Shown one piece after another: positions 1,911 to 13,253 of a DNA stretch of 39,161 bases; positions within the stretch are counted from its first letter, which is position 1; every line of letters begins with the position of its first letter. The notes under the pieces are model-generated. The model was given only the letters and a program-made list of their open reading frames with translations, ran no database searches and was not told the DNA's origin. The position numbers and the translations under genes were made by a program. The DNA is from Cytophagaceae bacterium (lineage in GTDB: Bacteria > Bacteroidota > Bacteroidia > Cytophagales > Spirosomataceae): the NCBI GenBank assembly GCA_947464595.1, contig CANHXO010000011.1, positions 1-39,161 of the forward strand, written 5' to 3'.

Positions 1911-3140
1911 ATGGTTACCAAACATTTTCCTACTTCTTTCCAATTTGAAGCTATTTTTAATGAAGCGGCCATCGGTATTTTGGTGACCAACTCGGCTTTT
2001 GAAATATTGATTTCTAATCACTTTGCTAATCAATTATTTGGTTTTAATTCCAATGAACTCATCGGTAAAAATATTTCGATTCTGATTCCTAATCACCTTA
2101 AAGATCGCCACCATGGTCATCTAAATCACTTAAATTCTTCCCCTATCTCTAGGCCCATGGGAATAGGTTTAGACCTTAAAGCCAAGCGAAAAGACGAATC
2201 ACTTTTTCCTATTGAGATTAGCTTAAGCCACTTTAAAGAGAATGAGCAAATATACTACATTGCTTTTGTCAGCGATGTGACGTTAAAACGCCAAGTGGAA
2301 ATGGAGCTGATCTTGAAAAATCAAGAGGTAAACCAATTAAACGAAACACTGGAAGAAGAAGTAAAAACGCGGACCCAAGCATTACAAAATACCCTAGAGA
2401 AATTAGAGAAGAATACGCACGAACTTGAAATTTCATTACAAAAAGAGATTGAGTTAGGTGATCTCAAAACACGTTTTGTTTCCATGGCTTCCCATGAATT
2501 TAGGACTCCTCTGACTGCTATCTTAAGCTCAGCCACCTTAATTGAAAAATATCAGAAGGAAACAGACCAAGAAAAACGCCTTCATCACATCAATCGCATA
2601 AAATCTTCCGTTTCTAACCTCACAGAAATATTAGAAGAATTCTTGTCCGTCGGTAAACTCGAAGACGGAAAAATTGAATTGCATCTTTCCGATATACCAT
2701 TAGCTACTTTTCTGGAAAATATTGCCTTTGAACTAGCTGCCTTTAGAAAGGAAAACCAAGAAATAATCATCGATTTTACAGGTTTGCCAACCTTCCATTC
2801 GGACAGTTCAATCCTTCGGAAAATTCTTTTAAATGGTTTATCCAATGCATTGAAGTTCTCAACTAAGGACGTTAGCCTTCGAGTCCTTTCGACCAATGAA
2901 TCCCTCGAGATGACGATCTCCGACCAGGGAGTTGGCATAAGTCAGGAAGACCAAAAACATCTATTTGAACGCTTTTTCCGTGGCGGAAATGTCAATGTGA
3001 TCCAAGGAACTGGCCTAGGATTACATTTAATTGACCAGTACCTAGAATTACTTGACGGCAAAGTTCAAATCACTAGTGAATTAAATAAAGGTACCGTTCT
3101 TCATCTACTAATACCTCATAAACATCACCCAAATGACTAA
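1911..3140 (+). CDS. PAS-domain sensor histidine kinase with FixL-like PAS (candidate oxygen sensor)
   Basis: The protein has 409 residues and no membrane segment, so it should be cytoplasmic. A PAS domain spans about 12-125. It contains LFGF, LIGKNISILIP and then RHHGH. His67 sits 17 residues before the GIG motif, the same spacing as from the haem-ligating His200 of Bradyrhizobium FixL to its GIG. The distal arginine that follows GIG in FixL is Leu here. A coiled coil (about 125-185) leads to the dimerisation/phosphoacceptor domain (SMASHEFRTP, His195). The ATPase domain has an N box (Asn308/Asn312), DQGVGI and GTGLGL. The gene overlaps the downstream regulator by 8 bases, so the pair is translationally coupled. 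A weak -7-like box (CATATTTG, 1896-1903) lies so close to the ATG that the transcript may be nearly leaderless. Haem binding is inference. Confidence 0.85.
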   Translation: MVTKHFPTSFQFEAIFNEAAIGILVTNSAFEILISNHFANQLFGFNSNELIGKNISILIPNHLKDRHHGHLNHLNSSPISRPMGIGLDLKAKRKDESLFPIEISLSHFKENEQIYYIAFVSDVTLKRQVEMELILKNQEVNQLNETLEEEVKTRTQALQNTLEKLEKNTHELEISLQKEIELGDLKTRFVSMASHEFRTPLTAILSSATLIEKYQKETDQEKRLHHINRIKSSVSNLTEILEEFLSVGKLEDGKIELHLSDIPLATFLENIAFELAAFRKENQEIIIDFTGLPTFHSDSSILRKILLNGLSNALKFSTKDVSLRVLSTNESLEMTISDQGVGISQEDQKHLFERFFRGGNVNVIQGTGLGLHLIDQYLELLDGKVQITSELNKGTVLHLLIPHKHHPND

Positions 3141-4188
3141 AATATTAATCATTGAAGATAACTTCGATATTCGTGAAAACACGGCAGAGCTATTAGAACT
3201 TTCAGGATACCAAGTAGAAAAAGCTTCCGATGGCATCGAAGGAGTTCGTTTGGCTAAAATATCTACCCCTGATATCGTCATTTGCGACATTATGATGCCT
3301 CATTTAGATGGTTACGGTGTGCTTCAAGTTTTTTCAAGCAGTGAGATTTTGAGCAAAGTACCATTTATTTTCCTCACCGCGAAAACGGATCGAGCCGATA
3401 TGCGCAAAGGGATGGAAATGGGTGCCGATGATTATTTGACTAAACCCTTTCAGGAAGTTGAGCTTTTGAAAGCCATCGAATCCCGACTCAAAAAGTTTGA
3501 AGGGTATACCTCTTTGCAAAAGGATTCTCATTCAGAAGTGGCTTTGGCACATGAAGCTTTGGAGTTTTTAGATTTTATTCACTACCCTAAAGAAAAAAGA
3601 GCGTCCAGCATCCATAAAAAACAAATCGTTTACTCCGAAGGCGACCACCCCGCTCGTTTGTATTTTCTCCAAAAAGGGAAAATCAAAACCTATCATACAA
3701 ACCGAGATGGAAAATACTTTATTACATCCTTTGTCCAAGAAGGTGAATTTTTTGGCTTTGTAGACATTTTAGAAAATCAGATGTATAGAGAATCAGCCGA
3801 AGCTCTCGAAGATGCAAGCGTGATCAGTATTTCATCCAAAGAATTTCAGGCGATTATCAAAGAAAATATCCATTTGGAAATATTTTTCCGAAAAGAATTG
3901 ACTAAATACCTAATCAAAAATGAGACGGTTTTAATGTCCATGGCCTATCAATCACTGCGCATGCGCGTCGCCGCCGCATTAGTGGAACTAGCTAAAACCT
4001 ACGGAACGAATATGGAAAGTCCAATTACCATGAAATTATCTAGAGAAGATTTAGCTTCCCGAGTAGGTACCGCGACCGAATCTGTCATCAGAACCTTGAG
4101 CGAATTTAAAAAAGAAGGACTCGTCGAAATTAAGGGCAGCGAAATGAAAATATTAAAGCCTTTGGCCCTGGCTAACCTAAAATACTAA
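3133..4188 (+). CDS. Response regulator: receiver domain fused to CRP/FNR-type sensor and DNA-binding domains
   Basis: The protein has 351 residues. The receiver (1-120) has the acidic pair Glu8/Asp9, phosphoacceptor Asp52 (CDIMMPHLDG), Thr82 and Lys104 (LTKPF). A cNMP-binding-type beta roll follows at about 150-255 (YSEGDHPARLYFLQKGKI). A CRP-type winged helix-turn-helix lies at about 275-345 (SREDLASRVGTATESVIRTL). The recognition helix keeps the Glu and Arg that read the TGA/TCA core in CRP and FNR. The four-cysteine cluster of oxygen-sensing FNR is absent, with Cys51 the only cysteine, so oxygen sensing would have to come from the kinase. It overlaps the kinase gene by 8 bases and ends 4 bases from the convergent end of the cbb3 cluster. 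Function: probably a phosphorylation-controlled activator or repressor of the neighbouring oxidase genes (inference). Confidence 0.9.
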   Translation: MTKILIIEDNFDIRENTAELLELSGYQVEKASDGIEGVRLAKISTPDIVICDIMMPHLDGYGVLQVFSSSEILSKVPFIFLTAKTDRADMRKGMEMGADDYLTKPFQEVELLKAIESRLKKFEGYTSLQKDSHSEVALAHEALEFLDFIHYPKEKRASSIHKKQIVYSEGDHPARLYFLQKGKIKTYHTNRDGKYFITSFVQEGEFFGFVDILENQMYRESAEALEDASVISISSKEFQAIIKENIHLEIFFRKELTKYLIKNETVLMSMAYQSLRMRVAAALVELAKTYGTNMESPITMKLSREDLASRVGTATESVIRTLSEFKKEGLVEIKGSEMKILKPLALANLKY

Positions 4189-4192
4189 AAGG

Positions 4193-4855
4193 CTATTTTG
4201 AAAAGGGATGACAGATGATTGGACTCAATGCTGAATGTTTTAAATATTGGGATTGATTCATCCCTAATCCCCAAGCACCTCGAATAATCAATAGGAACGA
4301 AATAGCCCATCCTAAATAAATCAATGTCTTCAAGTTTATTTTTTTTATTCCCCACATATAAACTCGGAGTGCAGGCAAAGTAGCCACCCCAAAACTGAGC
4401 ATACTTAAAAAACCTAAAATAGGTTTTGGTTGGAGCATCGCAATACTTAATCCGGCTAATACTAAACCACAAGGCATTAAACCATTGGCCATCCCTGCCA
4501 TAAAATAGCCAAGATCGCCCCATTTCATACCTTTTTTTCGTAAATATTTTCCCACACCCTCATGTAAAAAGAGCAATAATCCATCTCCTATTTTTTGTGT
4601 GATTACCAACAGGATCAAGATCCCTGCTGCGATGTAATAAAAATGCCATTGTGATGGAAAAAGCCAAATAGAACCTATTCCAGCAACTAAATAGCCTAAA
4701 ATACTATACATCAGGATTCTTCCCAAGGGATAGAGAATCATACGGAAATTCGATTTCCCTTTGGATTTTATGGAGGCCACTATCGGGCCGCACATGATCA
4801 AGCAATGCCAACTACCCGCTAAACCTATAAAGAAACTATAGTACCAAGTATTCAT
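4193..4855 (-). CDS. TauE/SafE-type (cytochrome biogenesis-like) membrane protein of cbb3 cluster
   Basis: The product has 220 residues from the ATG at 4855. That start lies just after the end of ccoH and begins MNTWYYSFFIGLAGSWHC; an upstream in-frame Met would overlap ccoH. There are about six membrane segments. The first carries a GSWHCLIMCGP motif, and a GLMPCGLVLAGL segment lies in the middle. These Cys/His motifs are typical of the 'sulfite exporter TauE/SafE family' proteins that close cbb3 clusters in Bacteroidota, and they recall the CcdA/DsbD and copper-handling membrane families. As the last gene of the ccoG-ccoH unit it probably helps copper delivery or oxidase maturation (inference); sulfite export is unlikely here. 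Confidence 0.75.
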   Translation of the reverse strand: MNTWYYSFFIGLAGSWHCLIMCGPIVASIKSKGKSNFRMILYPLGRILMYSILGYLVAGIGSIWLFPSQWHFYYIAAGILILLVITQKIGDGLLLFLHEGVGKYLRKKGMKWGDLGYFMAGMANGLMPCGLVLAGLSIAMLQPKPILGFLSMLSFGVATLPALRVYMWGIKKINLKTLIYLGWAISFLLIIRGAWGLGMNQSQYLKHSALSPIICHPFSK

Positions 4856-4866
4856 AATAATAGGAT

Positions 4867-5325
4867 TTACGGGACATAAATACGATGATCTTCCTGATAT
4901 TTTTGATTGTCTTGAACCCAATGAATGGATAAATTCCAGGGTCCCTTCTTTAAAAAAGATGTTTTTAAAATTTGAAAATCACTCGATAATTTAGACAGGT
5001 TAATTTGTTGGTCTAGTTTAGCATCGGAAGGTCGATAGAACACCAACGATATTTTTTGGGTTACCCTTGGATAGGTGATGCTTAGCGTTTGAAAATCTTC
5101 GCTAAATTCATAGCCTGGTTTCTCTAGGCCTAATTGATTTGCCTCGTTTCGCTCATTTATTTTTTCTTGGAAATTTTGACCCTCCTGGTAATATTGTTTT
5201 CCTACCAAATCAATATTTTCATGGGTCATATGAATATAGAAATAGGCCATAAATCCACCAAAAAGGATAAATGTTAAAATGATTCCATGTCCCCAGTGGA
5301 ATTTAAATGGCTTGTTAGTATTCAT
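4867..5325 (-). CDS. ccoH: FixH/CcoH family cbb3 oxidase accessory protein
   Basis: The product has 152 residues. I chose the ATG at 5325 because it gives MNTNKPFKFHWGHGIIL, the normal family start. A longer frame reading back to 5400 would lie entirely within ccoG. There is one N-terminal membrane segment (about 13-33), then MTHENIDLVGKQYYQEGQNF, which matches the FixH pattern, then a periplasmic beta-rich domain. In other bacteria FixH/CcoH acts in cbb3 assembly or copper insertion with CcoG, CcoI and CcoS. The start overlaps the end of ccoG by 11 bases, so the two are translationally coupled. Confidence 0.85.
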   Translation of the reverse strand: MNTNKPFKFHWGHGIILTFILFGGFMAYFYIHMTHENIDLVGKQYYQEGQNFQEKINERNEANQLGLEKPGYEFSEDFQTLSITYPRVTQKISLVFYRPSDAKLDQQINLSKLSSDFQILKTSFLKKGPWNLSIHWVQDNQKYQEDHRIYVP

Positions 5326-6721
5326 CTGGTTGTATAAAACTTGTTTTAATGATTTCCGTATCTCCCTCAGAATCAGTGACCATGATGGGTAATTTTTCAT
5401 GCCGAGGATGTTGGCCTATCAAACCCTTGATGAAAAATTCTCCTTTAGCCATTTTTCCCTGATCAATGCTTGTTATTCCTTTTCCTACCCAAATTAAGGC
5501 CATCGGAGGTTTCACAGATATCCTATAATTTTGTGTTGATTTTGATTTATTTAAAATCTCTATTTGGTATAAATTACTTACTGATTTCGTTTTTTCGTCA
5601 TATTGATAGGTCATCCCTGGCATTCTCAAAAGCGTTGTTTCATGATTTTTTCTGCTCATCAACAAATAACCAAAGACACCTAAAATCGAAATTAATAAAA
5701 AGCTATAGGCCGCGATCCTGTTGGTGAATTTAAGCTTAGCCTCTTTATTTACGCCATTGAGTGAATCATAGCGGATTAAATTCTTAGGTTTATTGATTTT
5801 TTCCATCACCTCATCACAGGCATCGATACATGAGGTACATCCGATGCATTCTAATTGGTTACTCCCATTTCGAATGTCAATTCCTGTAGGGCAAACACGT
5901 ACACACCAGTGGCAATCAATGCAATCTCCTTGCGCAGTGGAAAATTCATCTTTCATCATTTTCCCCCTGGGCTCTCCCCTTTTGTGGTCATATTGTACCA
6001 AAATTGAATTATTGTCCAATAATACGCCTTGCAATCTACCATAGGGACAAACCATCATACAGACGATTTCTCTAAATCGGGCGAAAACAAAATAGAATAT
6101 GGCCGTGAAAATCCAGATGGCCATAAAACCGATGAAATGGTTCATCGGAGGCTCTAAGACTAATTTTAACCATTCTTTTTTTCCGATGATGTACATGAGG
6201 AAGGTATTTGAAATGGCAAAAGCTAAAATCAAAAATAGGAAATGCTTGCTGGTCTTTTTAAGAATCTTCTCTTGGTTCCAAGGACCCTCATCTAACCTTC
6301 TTTGTGCTTTATCATCCCCTTCGATCCAATATTCAACTTTCCTGAAAAGCATTTCCATGAAAATGGTTTGAGGGCAAGCCCAACCACACCAAATGCGTCC
6401 AAAAAGTACGGTAAACAAACTGATGAAGATTAAAAAACTTACAATGCCTAAGGCAACTAAATGAAAATCTTGAGGATAAAATGGAACAGTCCAAAAAATA
6501 AAAGTTCGCTCCATCACATTAAACATGAAAACTGGTTGGCCTGAAATCTCCACCCAAGGAAGCCCAAACAATAGCATTAAAAGTACATAAGAAAAATAAG
6601 TTCTAGCTCGGTACAAATGGCCTATAATTCTTCCTGGGTATATCCAAAGCCTTCTTCCATCTTTGGATTGGTTATACAGATGATTGCGATAATCATCATT
6701 ATCTAAGTTCAGTTGGGACAT
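5315..6721 (-). CDS. ccoG: Cytochrome c oxidase accessory protein CcoG (FixG/RdxA-type polyferredoxin)
   Basis: The product has 468 residues, the usual size. It has several membrane segments and a conserved FGRIWCGWACPQT motif near residue 110. Two [4Fe-4S] ferredoxin motifs follow (CIDCHWCVRVCP and CIGCTSCIDAC, about 265-305). Then come another membrane segment and an immunoglobulin-like C-terminal domain. CcoG is a cupric reductase or redox accessory protein for cbb3 maturation at the cytoplasmic membrane. It lies between the DUF2892 gene (32 bases upstream, holding a hairpin) and ccoH (11-base overlap). The start gives MSQLNLDNDDYRN, and no better alternative is visible. Confidence 0.95.
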   Translation of the reverse strand: MSQLNLDNDDYRNHLYNQSKDGRRLWIYPGRIIGHLYRARTYFSYVLLMLLFGLPWVEISGQPVFMFNVMERTFIFWTVPFYPQDFHLVALGIVSFLIFISLFTVLFGRIWCGWACPQTIFMEMLFRKVEYWIEGDDKAQRRLDEGPWNQEKILKKTSKHFLFLILAFAISNTFLMYIIGKKEWLKLVLEPPMNHFIGFMAIWIFTAIFYFVFARFREIVCMMVCPYGRLQGVLLDNNSILVQYDHKRGEPRGKMMKDEFSTAQGDCIDCHWCVRVCPTGIDIRNGSNQLECIGCTSCIDACDEVMEKINKPKNLIRYDSLNGVNKEAKLKFTNRIAAYSFLLISILGVFGYLLMSRKNHETTLLRMPGMTYQYDEKTKSVSNLYQIEILNKSKSTQNYRISVKPPMALIWVGKGITSIDQGKMAKGEFFIKGLIGQHPRHEKLPIMVTDSEGDTEIIKTSFIQPDEY

Positions 6722-6753: not shown

Positions 6754-6981
6754 TTAACGAATATGAGGAGGTTCTTCTCGGGTAGTACTTTTGTGCAAAA
6801 CTTTATAGAGTGGACAAATTCTGACAAAGCCCGTTAGTGCGATAAATAGGGCAACTAAGTATACCGCTAAACGGATGTCTGTGGGTATAATTCCGGAATA
6901 AGTCAGAATGGCTATGGCTACGGCCAACGAGATACGAACGATTTGGTCCATTTTCCCAACATTTTTTCTTAGGTTCATCAT
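6754..6981 (-). CDS. DUF2892 (YgaP-like transmembrane) small protein
   Basis: The product has 75 residues and two membrane helices (about 14-32 and 38-55). It starts MMNLRKNVGKMDQIVRISLA and ends with a short basic/acidic tail. The pattern (N-x-G-x-x-D-Q-x-x-R near the start, then C-P-L-Y) is that of the DUF2892 family, which includes the membrane part of YgaP rhodanese. It sits 13 bases after ccoP and before ccoG, on the same strand, so it is probably part of the oxidase operon. Its function is unknown; a link to sulfur or redox handling would be a guess from YgaP. Confidence 0.75.
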   Translation of the reverse strand: MMNLRKNVGKMDQIVRISLAVAIAILTYSGIIPTDIRLAVYLVALFIALTGFVRICPLYKVLHKSTTREEPPHIR

Positions 6982-6994
6982 GTTTTATGCGTTT

Positions 6995-7732
6995 TTATTT
7001 GATTTCAATTCCCTGAGGTTCTTTTTGCCCCGGTGGGTTTGTTCCTTGTAATTTTAAAATATAGGAAGCAACTTGTTGTATTTGCAGTGGATTTAAGGTC
7101 TTATTCCAAGCGATCATCCCTTTTTCGGGTACTCCATTCGTAATTGTTTTAAACAAATCTTTAATACCAGCCCCATGAATCCAAAATCGATCTGTAAAAT
7201 TGGGCCCCACGCCTCCTTGCCCTAGATTTCCATGGCATGCCACACAATTTGTATTGTATATCGTGGATCCCTCTTTTAAGTCTTTTTTAGAAGTCGCTAT
7301 TACGACATTATTTTCGTTGACGGTGTTAGCAAATTTCTTCATATAAATAGCCCTTTCTTTTTCTGCTATTGCTATGTCATTTTTATATTCCGTTTCCTGA
7401 ATATTTCCGTCTTGTATCACATGATATTGGATTAAATAAATCACCCCAAATAAAATGGTTAAATAAAACAAATACATAAACCAAGGTGGCGTAGGATTGT
7501 CTAATTCAATGATTCCATCATGGGAATCTTTGATCATGATGTCCTTTTCTTCTTCAATAGGCCTTAATCCGGTGAATGTCTGCCACCAACTTAAAGGTTT
7601 TCTATCGGATGGATTTTTAGAACGAATGATTTTTTTTAGGGTATAATTCAATTGTACCGTAACAATGAATATGACGATACTGGTTAATATAACTAAACTG
7701 ATGAGCCAATTTTCGATATAAATGGTTTCCAT
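6995..7732 (-). CDS. ccoP: cbb3-type cytochrome c oxidase subunit CcoP (mono-haem form)
   Basis: The product has 245 residues. It has an N-terminal membrane helix (about 8-28), then the CcoP signature LDNPTPPWFMYLFYLTILFG (about 77-96) forming a second helix, then a periplasmic cytochrome c domain. Only one haem c site is present (CVACH, Cys163/Cys166/His167), with Met206 (EKGMIAW) as the likely axial ligand. Proteobacterial CcoP usually carries two haems and one helix, so this is the shorter-haem Bacteroidota form. It passes electrons from soluble donors to CcoO and CcoN. The start lies 5 bases after the ccoQ stop. Confidence 0.95.
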   Translation of the reverse strand: METIYIENWLISLVILTSIVIFIVTVQLNYTLKKIIRSKNPSDRKPLSWWQTFTGLRPIEEEKDIMIKDSHDGIIELDNPTPPWFMYLFYLTILFGVIYLIQYHVIQDGNIQETEYKNDIAIAEKERAIYMKKFANTVNENNVVIATSKKDLKEGSTIYNTNCVACHGNLGQGGVGPNFTDRFWIHGAGIKDLFKTITNGVPEKGMIAWNKTLNPLQIQQVASYILKLQGTNPPGQKEPQGIEIK

Positions 7733-7737
7733 TTTCT

Positions 7738-7917
7738 TTAAATTTTGGGTTCAAAATCATTATTCTCTAAAGGTAAATGCTGCATTTTAACCGTATGAAT
7801 AGGGTCCATCCACAAAAGATACAGGCCTACCAAAACAAAAAAGGCCATGAAAATGCACAAGGAGGAAATCATGAAAATATCGGCTCCAGGGATAACAGAA
7901 ATGAATTGCTTAAACAT
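7738..7917 (-). CDS. ccoQ: CcoQ-like small subunit of cbb3 oxidase
   Basis: This is a 59-residue frame starting MFKQFISVIPGADIFMISSL and ending NNDFEPKI. A single membrane helix (about 14-36) is followed by a short cytoplasmic tail with VKMQHLPL, which resembles the MxxLPL tail of CcoQ proteins. It lies exactly between the CcoN-O fusion (1 base upstream) and ccoP (5 bases downstream), the normal place for ccoQ. In other bacteria CcoQ stabilises the complex. Assignment rests on position, size and topology. Confidence 0.85.
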   Translation of the reverse strand: MFKQFISVIPGADIFMISSLCIFMAFFVLVGLYLLWMDPIHTVKMQHLPLENNDFEPKI

Positions 7918-7918
7918 C

Positions 7919-10045
7919 TTATTGTTTTTTGTTTATATCGGTTCCTAATCTTTGTAAATAAGCGATCAAAGCAATAATCTCTTTGTCAGCACCTATTTTT
8001 ATCTGCTCACCTGCCATTTGCATTTGAATCTCTTTTGCTTGTTGATTTAAATCACGTACGGCATTTTTAATTTGACTCTCCTCATAAGGTACTCCCAAGG
8101 TTTTCATGGCGCTTAACTTTTTCTCCGTCATGCTCGTATTCAGGGATTGCTCAAATAGCCAATCATAAGCTGGCATAATGGATCCAGGAGACATGGAGCT
8201 TGGTTCTCTCATGTGATGATAATGCCAAGAATTTGGATATTTTCCACCCTCACGATGTAAATCAGGCCCCGTACGCTTAGACCCCCATAAAAATGGATGG
8301 TCATACACAAACTCACCTGATTTAGAGAATTCCCCATAACGTTCAGTTTCACTTCTGAAGGGCCTGACCAATTGGGAATGGCAACTCACACAACCTTCTC
8401 GGATGTAAATATCTCTTCCTTCTAACTCCAAAGCACTATATGGCTTTACGGCCGCGATGGTTGGTACATTCGATTTCACCATAAACGTAGGTACTAACTC
8501 GACTAATGAACCGATTAAAATCATGATCAGAGAAGCTACTAGTAATTGAATAGGCCTTTTTTCAATCCAACGATGCCAATGTGCCTCAGGTGCTATTTCA
8601 TCAATTGTCAATAGTGCTGGGGCTTCTGCAGGTTCATTGGCCAACAATGTTCCCTGAGCCATGGTTTTGAACAAATTCACGGCCATCAAAATAGCTCCTA
8701 TTAAATAAAGTGTTCCTCCAAACGCACGCATTTGATGCATCGGGATTACTTGTAAGGTGGTATCTAAAAAATTGCCATATTGAAGATTTCCCTCAGCCGT
8801 AAATTGCTTCCACATCATTCCCTGAGTAAACCCTGATATGTACATGGGTATGGCATAAAATGCAATTCCTATCGTAGCGATCCAAAAGTGTGTTTTTACG
8901 AGTTTTTCTGAATATAGTTTGGTTTGGAATATTCGAGGGATCATCCAATATAAAATGGCAAAGGTTAAGAAACCATTCCAGCCTAATGCCCCCACATGAA
9001 CATGCGCAACAATCCAATCTGTAAAGTGGGCAATGGCGTTGATGTTTTTTAAACTCAACATAGGACCCTCAAAAGTAGCCATGCCATACGTGGTAATGCC
9101 AACGACCATGAACTTCAATATGGTGTTCTCTCTCACCTGATCCCACGCTCCCCTTAACGTTAAAAGTCCATTGATCATCCCACCCCAAGATGGAGCAATC
9201 AACATAATGGAGAAAACTACCCCTAAAGATTGCGCCCAATCAGGTAAACTTGAATACAATAAATGATGGGGCCCCGCCCAGATGTAGATAAAAATTAGAG
9301 CCCAAAAATGCAAGATGGATAGTCGGTAAGAATATACAGGCCTATTGGCCATTTTGGGCAAGAAATAATACATCAATCCTAAAAATGGTGTAGTTAAAAA
9401 GAACGCCACCGCATTATGTCCATACCACCACTGAACTAAGGCATCCTGAACACCCGCATAGACATAATAGGATTTGAAAATTGAGATAGGTAATTGCATG
9501 GAGTTAGTCAAATGCAATACCGCAACAGTCACGAAAGTGGCGATATAAAACCAAATAGCTACATATAAGTGCCTTTCCCTCCTTCTTAAAATCGTACCAA
9601 ACATGTTGATACCAAAAGCTACCCAAACCAACGTGATCGCAATATCAATAGGCCATTCTAATTCCGCATATTCATGTGAGGTGGTTATTCCTAAGGGTAA
9701 AGTGATGGCTGCTGCGACAATAATGGCTTGCCAACCCCAAAAATGAAATTCGGTTAAGAAATTACTGAACATTCTGGCTTTTAACAGTCTTTGCAATGAA
9801 TAATATACCCCAGCAAAAATAGCATTCCCCACAAAAGCAAAGATGACCGCATTGGTATGAAGAGGTCGAATTCGACCAAAAGAGCCATATTGTGTGAAGT
9901 TAGCTGCGGGTTCAAATAATTGGGTGGCAATAATTACGCCAACAAGCATCCCCACGATTCCCCAGATAATCGTGGCAATGGCAAAATTTCGAACAGCTTT
10001 GTTATCGTAATAAAATTGTTCTAATGGGTTTGATTGGGTGCTCAT
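7919..10045 (-). CDS. ccoNO: Fused cbb3 oxidase subunits I and II (CcoN-CcoO)
   Basis: The product has 708 residues. Residues 1 to about 465 are the catalytic CcoN subunit with about 12 helices. His63 (RPLHTNA) and His350 fit the low-spin haem b ligands. His210, His260 and His261 (AGPHH) fit CuB. His348 (VAHVHVGALGWNG) fits haem b3. After a linker and one helix (about 498-520), residues 525-708 are the CcoO cytochrome c domain with CVSCH (Cys552/Cys555/His556) and a likely Met624 ligand (GSIMPAYDW). Fused CcoN-O is typical of Bacteroidota. The enzyme reduces oxygen at low concentration and pumps protons. The ATG overlaps the ccoS stop by 4 bases (ATGA). Confidence 0.96.
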   Translation of the reverse strand: MSTQSNPLEQFYYDNKAVRNFAIATIIWGIVGMLVGVIIATQLFEPAANFTQYGSFGRIRPLHTNAVIFAFVGNAIFAGVYYSLQRLLKARMFSNFLTEFHFWGWQAIIVAAAITLPLGITTSHEYAELEWPIDIAITLVWVAFGINMFGTILRRRERHLYVAIWFYIATFVTVAVLHLTNSMQLPISIFKSYYVYAGVQDALVQWWYGHNAVAFFLTTPFLGLMYYFLPKMANRPVYSYRLSILHFWALIFIYIWAGPHHLLYSSLPDWAQSLGVVFSIMLIAPSWGGMINGLLTLRGAWDQVRENTILKFMVVGITTYGMATFEGPMLSLKNINAIAHFTDWIVAHVHVGALGWNGFLTFAILYWMIPRIFQTKLYSEKLVKTHFWIATIGIAFYAIPMYISGFTQGMMWKQFTAEGNLQYGNFLDTTLQVIPMHQMRAFGGTLYLIGAILMAVNLFKTMAQGTLLANEPAEAPALLTIDEIAPEAHWHRWIEKRPIQLLVASLIMILIGSLVELVPTFMVKSNVPTIAAVKPYSALELEGRDIYIREGCVSCHSQLVRPFRSETERYGEFSKSGEFVYDHPFLWGSKRTGPDLHREGGKYPNSWHYHHMREPSSMSPGSIMPAYDWLFEQSLNTSMTEKKLSAMKTLGVPYEESQIKNAVRDLNQQAKEIQMQMAGEQIKIGADKEIIALIAYLQRLGTDINKKQ

Positions 10046-10212
10046 AGATTCCTGTTTTTTGTCTTTTTTTCATCCATTAAAATGCGCATGGCAGGCGTGG
10101 TTAAATCTTCTTGTTGGCCCGTTTTAATGGACCAGATAAACGCTATGACAAAACCAATGGACATACTTAAACTTAATCCAATCATGAGGTACATTATTGC
10201 CATTTCGAGCAT
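10042..10212 (-). CDS. ccoS: CcoS, small cbb3 oxidase assembly protein
   Basis: This short frame gives 56 residues from the ATG at 10212: MLEMAIMYLMIGLSLSMSIG, one membrane helix, then IAFIWSIKTGQQEDLTTP and a charged tail. The helix ending in FIWSxKxGQxxD is the CcoS pattern. CcoS is needed for cofactor insertion into CcoN. Alternative starts at internal Met codons are possible. It overlaps the oxidase gene by 4 bases. The 66-base gap to ccoI holds a palindrome, so ccoS may head its own transcript. Confidence 0.88.
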   Translation of the reverse strand: MLEMAIMYLMIGLSLSMSIGFVIAFIWSIKTGQQEDLTTPAMRILMDEKKTKNRNL

Positions 10213-10254: not shown

Positions 10255-10270
10255 CATGATTATAGTCATG
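10255..10270. promoter_or_regulatory. Candidate CRP-family operator upstream of ccoS
   Basis: CATGA-N6-TCATG is a perfect palindrome with the same geometry as the CRP site TGTGA-N6-TCACA and contains the TGA/TCA core. It lies 43 bases upstream of the ccoS start, between ccoI and ccoS. The receiver-CRP regulator in this window keeps the Glu and Arg that read this core. Binding is inference. Confidence 0.4.
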
Positions 10271-10278
10271 ATATTGAT

Positions 10279-12729
10279 TTAATTATATGATTTATATTGT
10301 CTTTTTAGGCTTTTCCCATGGTAGTTCATACCAGCGTTAGCAATCAATAACATGCTAATCGAGTTAAGCGGCATCAGAATTGCAGCGATCAAGGGGGATA
10401 AATTGCCTTGTATTGCAAAACTTAGCCCTATCGCATTGTAAATGAGGGAGATTATAAAACTTAACTTGATTAATTTTAACCCATCTTGCGCAAAGTATAA
10501 AAATTTGGGTAAGTTGGCTAACGAACTTCCCTGTAAAATAGCGTCACTTGCTGGTGTAAAATGCATGTGATCATCAGAAACGGCAATGCCTATATGTGCC
10601 TGTTTAATGGCACCCGCATCATTCAATCCATCCCCTATCATCGCTACTTTTTTTCCTTGACCTTGTAAGGATTTGATGAAGTTCATTTTGTCCATCGGAC
10701 TGCATTCAAATCGGCAGGATTCTAATGCAGGAAACCAATCTAATAAATGAGTTGCATGTTCTTTTTTATCTCCTGAAAGTAGATAAACATTGTAATTGGA
10801 TTGGAGTTGGCGCAACATCCACTCCACGCCTGGCCTATTTTCCCAAGGAAATTCAATATAGCCTAAAGGCTCATGATTCATTTGAAGGTAGAGCTGAGAT
10901 TCTGAAATTTGGTACATGTTCTTTGTTTTAGATGAATGTCCAGTAAATGGTGCAGATCCAACCCGATATTGAATCCCATTAAAATAAGCCTCTAAGCCTT
11001 TTCCAGAAATTTCACTAAACATTTCCGCTTTAGTCATTTGAGCAAAACCTATGTTCTGTATCCATTTTTTAGTCTGTCTAGCTATTGGATGGGTGGATTG
11101 TTGGACTAATGAATACAGGTTGGACCATTCATCATGGGTCAAAGGCCGAATAAAATGCTCTTTCGCTCCCTCATTATTGGATAGCGTTAATGTACCCGTT
11201 TTGTCAAAAACGATGGTATCTATTTGTGCCAACCTTTCTAACGATTGAGTGTCTTTGATGAAAAAATTAAATTTGGCCAGCCATCTCATGCCATGACCTA
11301 AAGTAAAAGGATAAGAAATGGCTAAGGCACATGGACAAGCTATGACTAAGATACTGACGACCGAATTTTGCCATTTATTTGGGTCATTAATAAGCCAATA
11401 GATTCCCACTACTAGGGCTAGACTCATTAATCCGAAGGTGAAATATATCCCAACTTTATTGGCAAAGTTCTCCCAATTTTCCGTTTTGTGAAGAGGGTCT
11501 TTGAAGACTTGTTCCTCCCAAAGCTGCGTTAGATAGCTTTGTTTAAGCTCTTTAATGATGACAATTTCAACGATTTCGCCTGTATGTTTTCCACCGGCAT
11601 ATATGGAATCACCTACTTGAATCTTTATTTTTTCACTTTCTCCTGTAACAAAACTATAATCAATATGAGATTGGCCTCTATACAGAATCGCATCTGCCGG
11701 TATGATTTCTTGGTTTCTGATCACCAAATGATCCCCCACAGCTATTTCTTGAAGGGGAGCTAACACCTCCAAGCCTTGAACTATTTTAGTGATAGTCAAA
11801 GGGAAGTAGGAAGTATACTTGCGTTCAAATGACAGAAAATCAAATGATTTTTGTTGGAACCACTTCCCTATCAATAAAAAAAATAATAAGCCTGAAACCG
11901 AATCTATATAACCAGCACCTGTATGAGTTAGAATTTCATAAACACTTCTAGAATAACCCACTAAAATGCCCAATAATATAGGAAGTTCAATGGTAATCTT
12001 CTTTAGTTTTAGGTGGGACCAAACATTTTTAAAGTAATCTGAACCAGCATAAAAGACAGCTATGGTCCCTAAGAAAAGGTTTAAATATCCAAAAAGGTGT
12101 TTAAGTTCCCCATCTTCGATGCCCAAATATTCAGGAAAGCTAAACAGCATGGCGTTTCCTGCACAAAACCCGGCAATGCCCAACTTCATAAACAAGGCAT
12201 TTTCTTCCTTTAAATTTTGATGTCGGCTCGTTTTTGATTCTTCCGAATCTATAAAAGGCTCATAACCAAGGCTGGCTAGGAAGTTGGCCAACTCCCCTAA
12301 AGAAATCTCAGATTCTTCAAACCAAACACTAAGTTCTTTTTTGGTAAAATTTAAGTTGGTTTTTAAAATGGCTGCATTTAGCTTATGCAGGTTTTCTAAT
12401 AAGTATAAACAGGATCTGCAATGAATTCCAGGAAGATTGAATGTCACTTTTGAAATTCCCCCTTTCGAAAAAGTGATTAGTTTTTCTCTAAAAATGAGAT
12501 GATCTAAAAAACCAAATCGCTGCTCATGGGGAGATCTTCCTGGGACAACATCGCATGCATAATAATCTTCTAAGGAATGATCTGATAATAATTGATAAAC
12601 TTGTTGGCACCCTGAACAACAAAAAGAATGCTTTTGATAAATGATTGAATTAGCTTGATTCAACTCTCCGCAATGGAAACAATGGGAATCAGTGATGATG
12701 GGTTTCTGAGTGGCAGCAATTAAATTCAT
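10279..12729 (-). CDS. ccoI: Heavy-metal (Cu) translocating P1B-type ATPase CcoI/FixI for oxidase assembly
   Basis: The product has 816 residues. The N-terminus has a Cys-rich metal-binding stretch (CFHCGELN, then CCSGC at 37-41) and one HMA domain with GIHCRSC (Cys104/Cys107). Eight membrane segments follow. TGES is at 362-365, the metal-path CPC at 465-467, the phosphorylated Asp509 in DKTGT, and MIGDGLNDAGA near the hinge. The long N-terminus with two Cys motifs and its position beside ccoS mark it as CcoI/FixI, which exports Cu(I) for insertion into cbb3 oxidase, and not as a detoxifying CopA. It appears to head the leftward cluster, divergent from the cNMP-domain gene. Confidence 0.93.
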   Translation of the reverse strand: MNLIAATQKPIITDSHCFHCGELNQANSIIYQKHSFCCSGCQQVYQLLSDHSLEDYYACDVVPGRSPHEQRFGFLDHLIFREKLITFSKGGISKVTFNLPGIHCRSCLYLLENLHKLNAAILKTNLNFTKKELSVWFEESEISLGELANFLASLGYEPFIDSEESKTSRHQNLKEENALFMKLGIAGFCAGNAMLFSFPEYLGIEDGELKHLFGYLNLFLGTIAVFYAGSDYFKNVWSHLKLKKITIELPILLGILVGYSRSVYEILTHTGAGYIDSVSGLLFFLLIGKWFQQKSFDFLSFERKYTSYFPLTITKIVQGLEVLAPLQEIAVGDHLVIRNQEIIPADAILYRGQSHIDYSFVTGESEKIKIQVGDSIYAGGKHTGEIVEIVIIKELKQSYLTQLWEEQVFKDPLHKTENWENFANKVGIYFTFGLMSLALVVGIYWLINDPNKWQNSVVSILVIACPCALAISYPFTLGHGMRWLAKFNFFIKDTQSLERLAQIDTIVFDKTGTLTLSNNEGAKEHFIRPLTHDEWSNLYSLVQQSTHPIARQTKKWIQNIGFAQMTKAEMFSEISGKGLEAYFNGIQYRVGSAPFTGHSSKTKNMYQISESQLYLQMNHEPLGYIEFPWENRPGVEWMLRQLQSNYNVYLLSGDKKEHATHLLDWFPALESCRFECSPMDKMNFIKSLQGQGKKVAMIGDGLNDAGAIKQAHIGIAVSDDHMHFTPASDAILQGSSLANLPKFLYFAQDGLKLIKLSFIISLIYNAIGLSFAIQGNLSPLIAAILMPLNSISMLLIANAGMNYHGKSLKRQYKSYN

Positions 12730-12884
12730 TCATAAAATTTTAAACAAATTTGCTGAATCAGCGTATTTAATTTCTTGACAAAACGCAATCGTAAAACTGA
12801 TGTATGTTAGGTTTTTATTTCGCAAAGCCATGTATTTTCGTCTGCGAATTAACCTAAGAAGGTTGGTGGATAGAATAAATTCAA
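12730..12884. promoter_or_regulatory. Divergent regulatory region between ccoI and the cNMP-domain gene
   Basis: This 155-base gap must hold promoters for both directions. A short palindrome GCTGA-a-TCAGC lies at 12752-12762. A -7-like box TATTTTCG (12833-12840) points rightward. An imperfect inverted repeat (12817-12824 with 12843-12850, TTCGCA/TGCGAA core) surrounds that box. No clear -33 TTG is properly spaced. None of these elements is proven. Confidence 0.35.
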
Positions 12885-13253
12885 ATGGCAGACACCTTTT
12901 TAGATACGGAGAAAAAAATATTGGCTAGTGGAATTGAGATGAAGTATTTATCAGATGAACATATTTTTAGAAAGGGGCAAAAAGCAGAATTTGTATTTTT
13001 TTTAAAAGAAGGAAGTTTATCCATTCATTGGTCCACAGGCAAAATTCAATCAAGGGTTATTGATATACCTTGTTTTATCGGAATTGAAGAGGCAATCGAT
13101 GGAAAAAATTACACTTGCAGCATGCAGACTTTGGTTGATTGCAAGTTTTTAGTTTTTGAGCGCAAGTACTTTTTGATGCTAATGAATGAATTTGAAGCAG
13201 CAACCCCCTATTTTCTTCAGAAAAAGGAAGATTTTAATTTGTTAAGTTCATAG
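12885..13253 (+). CDS. Stand-alone CRP-type cyclic-nucleotide-binding-fold protein lacking a DNA-binding domain
   Basis: The product has 122 residues and is almost entirely a cNMP-binding-type beta roll: FRKGQKAEFVFFLKEGSLSI (29-48), then a possible GIEEAIDGKNYTC loop, then the C-helix region. The protein stops where the CRP hinge and helix-turn-helix would begin. Only 51 bases separate its stop from the convergent SDR gene, so no broken DNA-binding remnant follows. The arginine-containing phosphate-binding cassette of cAMP-binding CRP is not visible, so its ligand, if any, is unknown. It is divergent from ccoI. It could dimerise with, or compete for the signal of, a CRP-family regulator (inference). 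Confidence 0.65.
   Translation: MADTFLDTEKKILASGIEMKYLSDEHIFRKGQKAEFVFFLKEGSLSIHWSTGKIQSRVIDIPCFIGIEEAIDGKNYTCSMQTLVDCKFLVFERKYFLMLMNEFEAATPYFLQKKEDFNLLSS

Follow-up and report, generated by a model that had tools for sequence, protein, structure and literature searches.

The closest described counterpart of the system treated here is the FixL-FixJ-FixK cascade of the Alphaproteobacteria, which combines a PAS histidine kinase with an F-helix His (FixL), a REC-LuxR response regulator (FixJ) and a CRP/FNR-type output protein without iron-sulphur (Fe-S) cysteines (FixK), with a cbb3 oxidase as the target. According to PMC4999443, the cluster-less, kinase-driven FixK and the Fe-S protein FnrN use very similar, FNR-like palindromic sites (FixK/FnrN consensus TTGANCNNGATCAANG), and in the Caulobacterales FnrN was lost, with FixLJ in its place. 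In Myxococcus xanthus, a haem-dependent kinase heads the multi-component NmpRSTU relay that regulates cbb3 (PMC11841059). Here we consider a 39,161-nucleotide stretch of a Cytophagaceae bacterium genome (contig CANHXO010000011.1; the window, i.e. the whole stretch analysed), in which a FixL-like PAS histidine kinase of 409 aa (1911..3140, + strand) is followed by a 351-aa response regulator (3133..4188, + strand) with a receiver fused to a CRP-type module (REC-cNMP_binding-HTH_Crp, hereafter REC-CRP). The pair meets a cbb3 cluster of the opposite strand tail to tail.

Like the FixL-FixJ-FixK cascade, this locus has a PAS kinase with an F-helix His, a CRP/FNR-type output without Fe-S cysteines, an FNR-like palindrome and, probably, a cbb3 target. 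It differs in that the REC-LuxR step is missing and the receiver is fused directly to the CRP-type module, which makes one protein fewer. Having Leu at the position of the distal Arg and a REC-CRP as partner, the kinase is not FixL in the strict sense; the pair has no FixJ-type gene, and the regulator groups with FNR-type proteins of the Bacteroidota, so 'FixK-like' is to be taken as a functional analogy. By the same analogy, the circuit in Bacteroidota would parallel that of FnrN versus FixLJ-FixK, having been reached by gene fusion. NmpRSTU is further away (its sensor is of the protoglobin type and its output NtrC-like), while DosP of Escherichia coli, whose haem PAS domain is near that of the kinase in both sequence and fold, has a cyclic di-GMP phosphodiesterase as output. 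Among the titles and abstract openings listed for the open-licence literature (most subscription papers being outside this scope), there was no paper on a receiver-CRP protein with a FixL-like kinase for Bacteroidota, and the term 'CRP' is absent from the main text of two published censuses.

We propose, with a probability of about 0.62, that the pair forms a two-step oxygen circuit in which a probable haem-PAS kinase and the REC-CRP control the high-affinity cbb3 oxidase. The best reading of the regulator is that it fills the role of FNR at a shared operator, as a one-step analogue of FixLJ-FixK. If so, a large group of environmental Bacteroidota would have a low-oxygen circuit whose parts can be named, and would offer a natural example of a sensor swap in which the operator was kept.

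A FixL-like PAS kinase and its receiver-CRP partner

According to Pfam, the kinase consists of a PAS domain (residues 12-123; PAS_9 22-124), HisKA (186-253, with H195 as the H-box His) and HATPase_c (298-403), i.e. the architecture of FixL. It is probably cytoplasmic, since it has no strongly hydrophobic stretch (the highest 19-residue hydrophobicity mean being 1.3). A search of the PDB sequences with the PAS domain only gave 20 matches at E-values up to 0.1, of which the top 14 are haem PAS proteins: FixL and DosP occupy ranks 1-13 (4.6e-13 to 1.8e-10) and 10jx rank 14 (1.1e-6), with the blue-light LOV protein YtvA ranking after it (7e-5). The AlphaFold model of residues 1-140 has a mean pLDDT (predicted local distance difference test) of 92.7, and in Foldseek its top 32 matches are all FixL or DosP structures, with 10jx (titled as a haem-binding PAS domain) at rank 34. 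A first-pass annotation, made from the sequence alone, had called this PAS domain FixL-like and suggested a comparison of its predicted structure with the FixL PAS; both the sequence search and this comparison bear the call out.

H67 (codon at 2109..2111, + strand), the candidate proximal haem ligand, indeed lies exactly 17 residues ahead of the GIG motif (84-86), and aligns with the proximal His of FixL and DosP in the PDB sequence alignment (as a residue only). Among 122 distinct PAS domains from kinases beside REC-CRP genes (chosen by a similarity cut to the PAS of the window or of FixL), 116 have His in this column, with the adjacent helix positions being variable. For the FixL/DosP PAS cluster, the F-helix His is described as the primary determinant of haem binding, invariable in 60% of the cluster sequences (PMC10468136). 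Sequence and predicted fold together suggest that the kinase PAS probably binds haem through H67. The six paired PAS domains in which the His is missing (L099, L119, L128, L129, L170 and L190) may sense something else, although in L170 and L190 this is perhaps an alignment shift. Three further genomes (G004, G024 and G040) carry an orthodox FixL-type PAS (IIGIGRE) approximately 3 kb upstream of the REC-CRP.

The regulator is composed of Response_reg (4-116), cNMP_binding (160-245) and HTH_Crp_2 (278-348) domains, which confirms the fusion of a receiver to a CRP-type DNA-binding module as it had been described before. As expected of a response regulator, D9, the phospho-acceptor D52, T82 and K104 are all there. 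Its predicted model (mean pLDDT 85.3) shows a receiver, a linker (residues 124-150, pLDDT below 50) and a CRP-type module with a beta-roll and HTH_Crp, for which all 50 Foldseek matches listed are CRP-family structures. Across 50 aligned REC-CRPs, E8, D9, D52, K104, E316 and R320 are invariant, with E316..R320 forming the predicted recognition helix; we take E316 and R320 to correspond to the residues that read TGA half-sites in FNR (E209/R213) and in CRP (E181/R185). By eye, the regulator reads YRESA where CRP presumably has the RSA of its cyclic AMP phosphate-binding cassette. The sole Cys is C51, in the receiver, so that the four cysteines of a [4Fe-4S] FNR are absent (also as annotated at first pass), and none of 182 REC-CRPs has a CxxC within residues 119-175. 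C51, adjoining the phospho-acceptor, is itself invariant in the 50 aligned REC-CRPs.

Because the regulator is without Fe-S cysteines, the oxygen signal would have passed to the kinase instead of staying with the protein that binds DNA. At low oxygen, the PAS haem would lose its ligand, upon which the kinase would phosphorylate the receiver at D52; once phosphorylated, the REC-CRP dimer would bind an FNR-type palindrome (core TGA-N6-TCA) via the E316..R320 helix and activate the cco genes and, in many relatives, probably also its own kinase-regulator operon. If true, this would make two questions testable, namely how the Fe-S cluster that acts as the switch of an FNR-type dimer can be replaced by a receiver, and in what way a haem PAS functions with Leu or Met at the position of the distal Arg.

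Recurrence, cbb3 linkage and a shared palindrome

Of the 194 genomes of the order, 84 carry one to three REC-CRP matches above 200 bits, which we define as 'full-length' even though there is a stop codon within four of the rows and some run only to about residue 324; the number of genomes rises to 90 if receiver-only and CRP-only matches are included. Besides the window, this gave 106 full-length places, of which 102 were taken into the analysis (G058, G138, G099 and G113 were left out), together with 80 named-organism loci, being the best 80 of 578 matches. Since the two sets overlap (e.g. Dyadobacter luteus and Rudanella), clustered counts are preferred. Among these best 80 of 578 are Larkinella, Dyadobacter, Runella, Hymenobacter, Rufibacter, Pontibacter, Chitinophaga and others, while for the regulator the closest named records are a metagenome-assembled genome (MAG) labelled Spirosoma fluviale, with 95% identity, followed at 71% by both Aquirufa beregesia and a Cytophagaceae MAG. 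The window thus probably stems from an Aquirufa-like bacterium. Loci like those of the Bacteroidota were also found on contigs labelled Azovibrio (L172), Alphaproteobacteria (L192) and Spirosoma fluviale (L135, almost identical to the window's own locus), all of which are probably misbinned or misnamed MAGs.

Out of 183 REC-CRPs, 126 neighbour a PAS-matching kinase, 39 an open reading frame (ORF) of at least 300 aa without a matching PAS, and 18 neither; a domain scan of six of the 39 identified five receiver-kinases and one methyltransferase. Two loci (L060, 10547-13610; L078, 6193-9464) have a PAS kinase, a lone receiver and a receiver-kinase upstream of the REC-CRP. Judged from their genes, these four-gene sets are possibly a longer, four-part phosphorelay, and their layout is nearer to the relay form of NmpRSTU than the pair in the window is.

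The pairing with a PAS kinase goes together with linkage to cbb3. Genes for cbb3 are in the flank of 30/102 order-genome loci and 30/80 named-organism loci and, after clustering at 90% identity (window included), ccoNO or ccoG flanks 50 of the 105 clusters with a PAS kinase, compared to 2 of the 42 others (p = 2.5e-7, a value that takes no account of phylogeny and is inflated by close relatives). The layouts differ: convergent in the window, kinase-regulator-ccoI on one strand in L050, L097 and L101, and on the same strand after the cluster in L041. In L050, ccoI, REC-CRP and kinase share a strand, and ccoNO starts about 1.2 kb past the kinase on the opposite one. Therefore, it seems that the link to cbb3 was probably made or kept several times. 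On the genome level, 74 of the 84 REC-CRP genomes of the order have a FixO match.

Enumeration of 4-base palindromes with gaps of 2-10 bases in the regions ahead of the cco, kinase and regulator genes, relative to shuffled sequence, ranked forms of TGA-N6-TCA at the top for the kinase as well as for ccoI and ccoNO. The REC-CRP, ccoG and ccoP sets had other words at the top, some with higher ratios; the REC-CRP upstream set is mostly kinase coding sequence, and the evidence is limited to intergenic counts. When each 80% identity cluster is represented by a single locus, TGAY-N4-RTCA is present in 31 of 41 intergenic regions upstream of ccoI/ccoNO and in 35 of 73 upstream of the paired kinase, compared to 85/602 for other genes and 3/148 for convergent, promoter-less regions (before de-duplication, 45/64 for ccoI/ccoNO and 5/238 for convergent regions). 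The palindrome is thus also enriched before unlabelled neighbour genes (intergenic regions of L035-L214), which makes it probable that the regulon extends beyond cbb3. It furthermore precedes ccoNO in 15 of 20 picked REC-CRP genomes that have cbb3 outside the flank.

In the window itself, the candidate operator ATGATTATAGTCAT (10256..10269, no strand assigned) is a full match found by motif scan between the ccoI stop and a ccoS-sized ORF; L036 has a palindrome at a similar distance from ccoNO (-222 vs -224), and L035 and L137 have none there. A second candidate, CTGATGTATGTTAG (12797..12810, no strand assigned), upstream of ccoI, was found by motif scan and alignment, and shares alignment columns with TGA-N6-TCA sites of L035, L036 and L137.

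The REC-CRP is largely complementary to stand-alone CRP/FNR proteins, which are present (at E-values up to 1e-33) in 48 of the 52 genomes of the order with FixO but without REC-CRP. These share with the REC-CRP the CRP/FNR module and the palindrome upstream of ccoNO, but differ from it in that 21 of 22 that were read (three of which come from genomes that also carry a REC-CRP) have an N-terminal CxxC and further Cys in the style of an Fe-S FNR, where the REC-CRP has a receiver instead. Among the matches listed, to which all counts of stand-alone proteins refer and which are perhaps too low for those in REC-CRP genomes, the 126 FixO genomes of the order (the FixO matches of G106 and G124 being weak) divide into 55 with REC-CRP only, 48 with a stand-alone only, 19 with both and 4 with neither (p = 1.3e-14, uncorrected for kinship). 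In a class-wide sample, 85 of 149 genomes have FixO: 46 have only the long frame, 23 only a stand-alone, eight both and eight neither (p = 6.6e-8, likewise uncorrected for kinship), where the long frame is a REC-CRP-sized open frame of at least 341 aa with the receiver unchecked (weak in G265 and G291), and where G249, counted as stand-alone, may be a REC-CRP with a broken frame. In 19 of the 48 stand-alone-only genomes of the order, no more than 8.3 kb separate the stand-alone from the FixO domain, an address akin to that of the REC-CRP.

A tree built from 59 REC-CRP and 17 stand-alone modules places the stand-alones in a single group (99/100) with the REC-CRPs adjoining it; the root is unsure and the bootstrap has not settled, but the tree does not contradict a single receiver fusion. 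Following these results, it could be that across the Bacteroidia the cbb3 operator TGAY-N4-RTCA remained unchanged and is served interchangeably by a stand-alone Fe-S FNR that senses oxygen itself or by a relative with a fused receiver that takes its signal from a haem-PAS kinase, a generalisation for which we see the odds as even. In this two-regulator reading, the transcription factor would have given up the sensor role to the kinase, in many cases with its place in the chromosome unchanged.

Observations that favour other readings

Several observations weigh against the oxygen circuit proposed here, some concerning the sensor and others the target. Directly after GIG, the kinase has Leu87 (as the first-pass annotation had noticed) instead of the distal Arg of FixL, and among the 122 paired PAS domains this residue is variable (R 51, M 30, L 19). 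As a control, 23 PAS matches in eight relatives were inspected, of which 13 lie outside REC-CRP loci (judged from coordinates); nine of these 13 have the His as well (three pairs being near copies). Thus, while H67 is as well conserved among the paired kinases as had been anticipated, the His marks a PAS subfamily rather than this circuit, and H67 as proof of haem is ruled out. Residue 83 in the kinase is Met, and M83 occurs together with H67 in 101 of the 122 domains. Met83 might likewise ligate the haem, from a column other than the one that holds the Met of DosP: the Met and Arg of DosP, which we take to be M95 and R97, occupy the columns of I85 and L87.

The variable residue 87, the possible second ligand and the His-bearing PAS domains elsewhere would all fit a pair that controls cbb3 with a PAS domain that, in this clade, does not sense oxygen by binding it to haem, i.e. 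one that senses redox state or nitric oxide/carbon monoxide with its haem, or another signal such as the respiratory redox state. We consider this rather unlikely, since the nearest solved relatives of the PAS domain bind haem, and orthodox FixL-type PAS kinases are found in the same kind of pair beside cbb3 in L050, L064, L084, L087, L097 and L101; the orthodox combination of His, Ile83 and Arg87 is present in 15 of the 122 domains.

With regard to the target, cbb3 genes are absent from the flank in 55 of the 105 PAS-kinase clusters (and in 40 of the 42 others), numbers which are upper bounds because many flanks are cut by contig ends. Ten of the 84 REC-CRP genomes have no FixO match, and since two or three REC-CRPs are present in several genomes, one cbb3 operon cannot explain every REC-CRP. 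The first-pass annotation would have counted a pair commonly away from cbb3 genes against its reading, and in part this is what the clusters show. The palindrome is equally frequent before ccoNO in cbb3 genomes without REC-CRP (16/20, sampled from 52 such genomes), so its binder is not identified as the REC-CRP; as a REC-CRP-specific mark it is ruled out, and it seems, from its distribution, to belong to cbb3 across the group at large. In the window, the candidate site before ccoI has its one mismatch, the motif scan gave no palindrome before the kinase (nor did alignment of the kinase upstream regions in the window's clade reveal a conserved site), and the whole-window count shows no excess (5 found vs 3.94 expected), upon which within-window motif significance was dropped.

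It follows that the pair might merely neighbour cbb3, with another CRP/FNR protein acting at the palindrome, as the unlinked clusters and the palindromes of REC-CRP-negative genomes would allow. That the linkage is repeated in several layouts, and that the REC-CRP is complementary to the stand-alone FNR-type proteins, makes this improbable. Moreover, at E-values up to 1e-33 there is no stand-alone among the matches listed for the window's genome or for its relatives G086 (genus mate) and G190 (family member), all three of which have REC-CRP and FixO; a search with the CRP part (E-values up to 1e-18) gave a single match in each, again among the matches listed, namely the REC-CRP itself. The assembly of the window's genome is only 74% complete, yet G086, which likewise has no close stand-alone among the matches listed, is listed at 99%. 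The other three cNMP_binding matches of the window's genome are one without a helix-turn-helix (HTH) and two (L002 and L004) that are very distant in the tree.

The sign of the response could also be the reverse of the FixL logic, either because the regulator is a repressor that is freed by phosphorylation or because the kinase is active with oxygen. The sequence leaves the sign unfixed, but Rhizobium hFixL induces FixK and thereby the activation of fixNOQP at low oxygen (PMC7888657), and cbb3 of Flavobacterium psychrophilum is strongly induced by oxygen limitation (PMC9723704), which makes a reversed sign improbable. Taken together, the observations of the first-pass annotation on the pair are confirmed, while its interpretation as a compressed oxygen circuit is partly supported.

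The cbb3 cluster and neighbouring genes

The ORF coordinates agree with the 8-base overlap of kinase and regulator (3133..3140, + strand) and the 4-base distance to the cbb3 tail that had been read at first pass: the regulator ends at base 4188, with 4 bases left to the convergent ORF at 4193..4921 (- strand), a DsbD_2 membrane protein of the cytochrome c biogenesis type (Pfam). Being convergent with the cluster, the pair is outside the cbb3 operon in the window. All further cluster genes are on the - strand. The DsbD_2 gene is preceded by ccoH/fixH (4867..5400, Pfam), ccoG/fixG (5315..6721, Pfam and an NCBIfam-type profile match) and, between ccoG and ccoP, a small YgaP-like transmembrane protein (6754..6981, Pfam). 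The ccoP gene (6995..7732) scores below the NCBIfam ccoP cut-off and above the Pfam FixP_N cut-off. Profile matches identify a ccoNO fusion of cbb3 subunits I and II (7919..10045) and a ccoI-type copper P-type ATPase (10279..12729), whereas place and size only point to a 59-aa ORF (7738..7917) as the probable ccoQ and a 56-aa ORF (10042..10212) as the probable ccoS.

Divergent from ccoI lies a gene for a 122-aa cNMP_binding protein (12885-13253, + strand), in which Pfam finds no HTH. This protein may be a stand-alone sensor or a decayed regulator, and matches to it also adjoin ccoI in L035 and L036.

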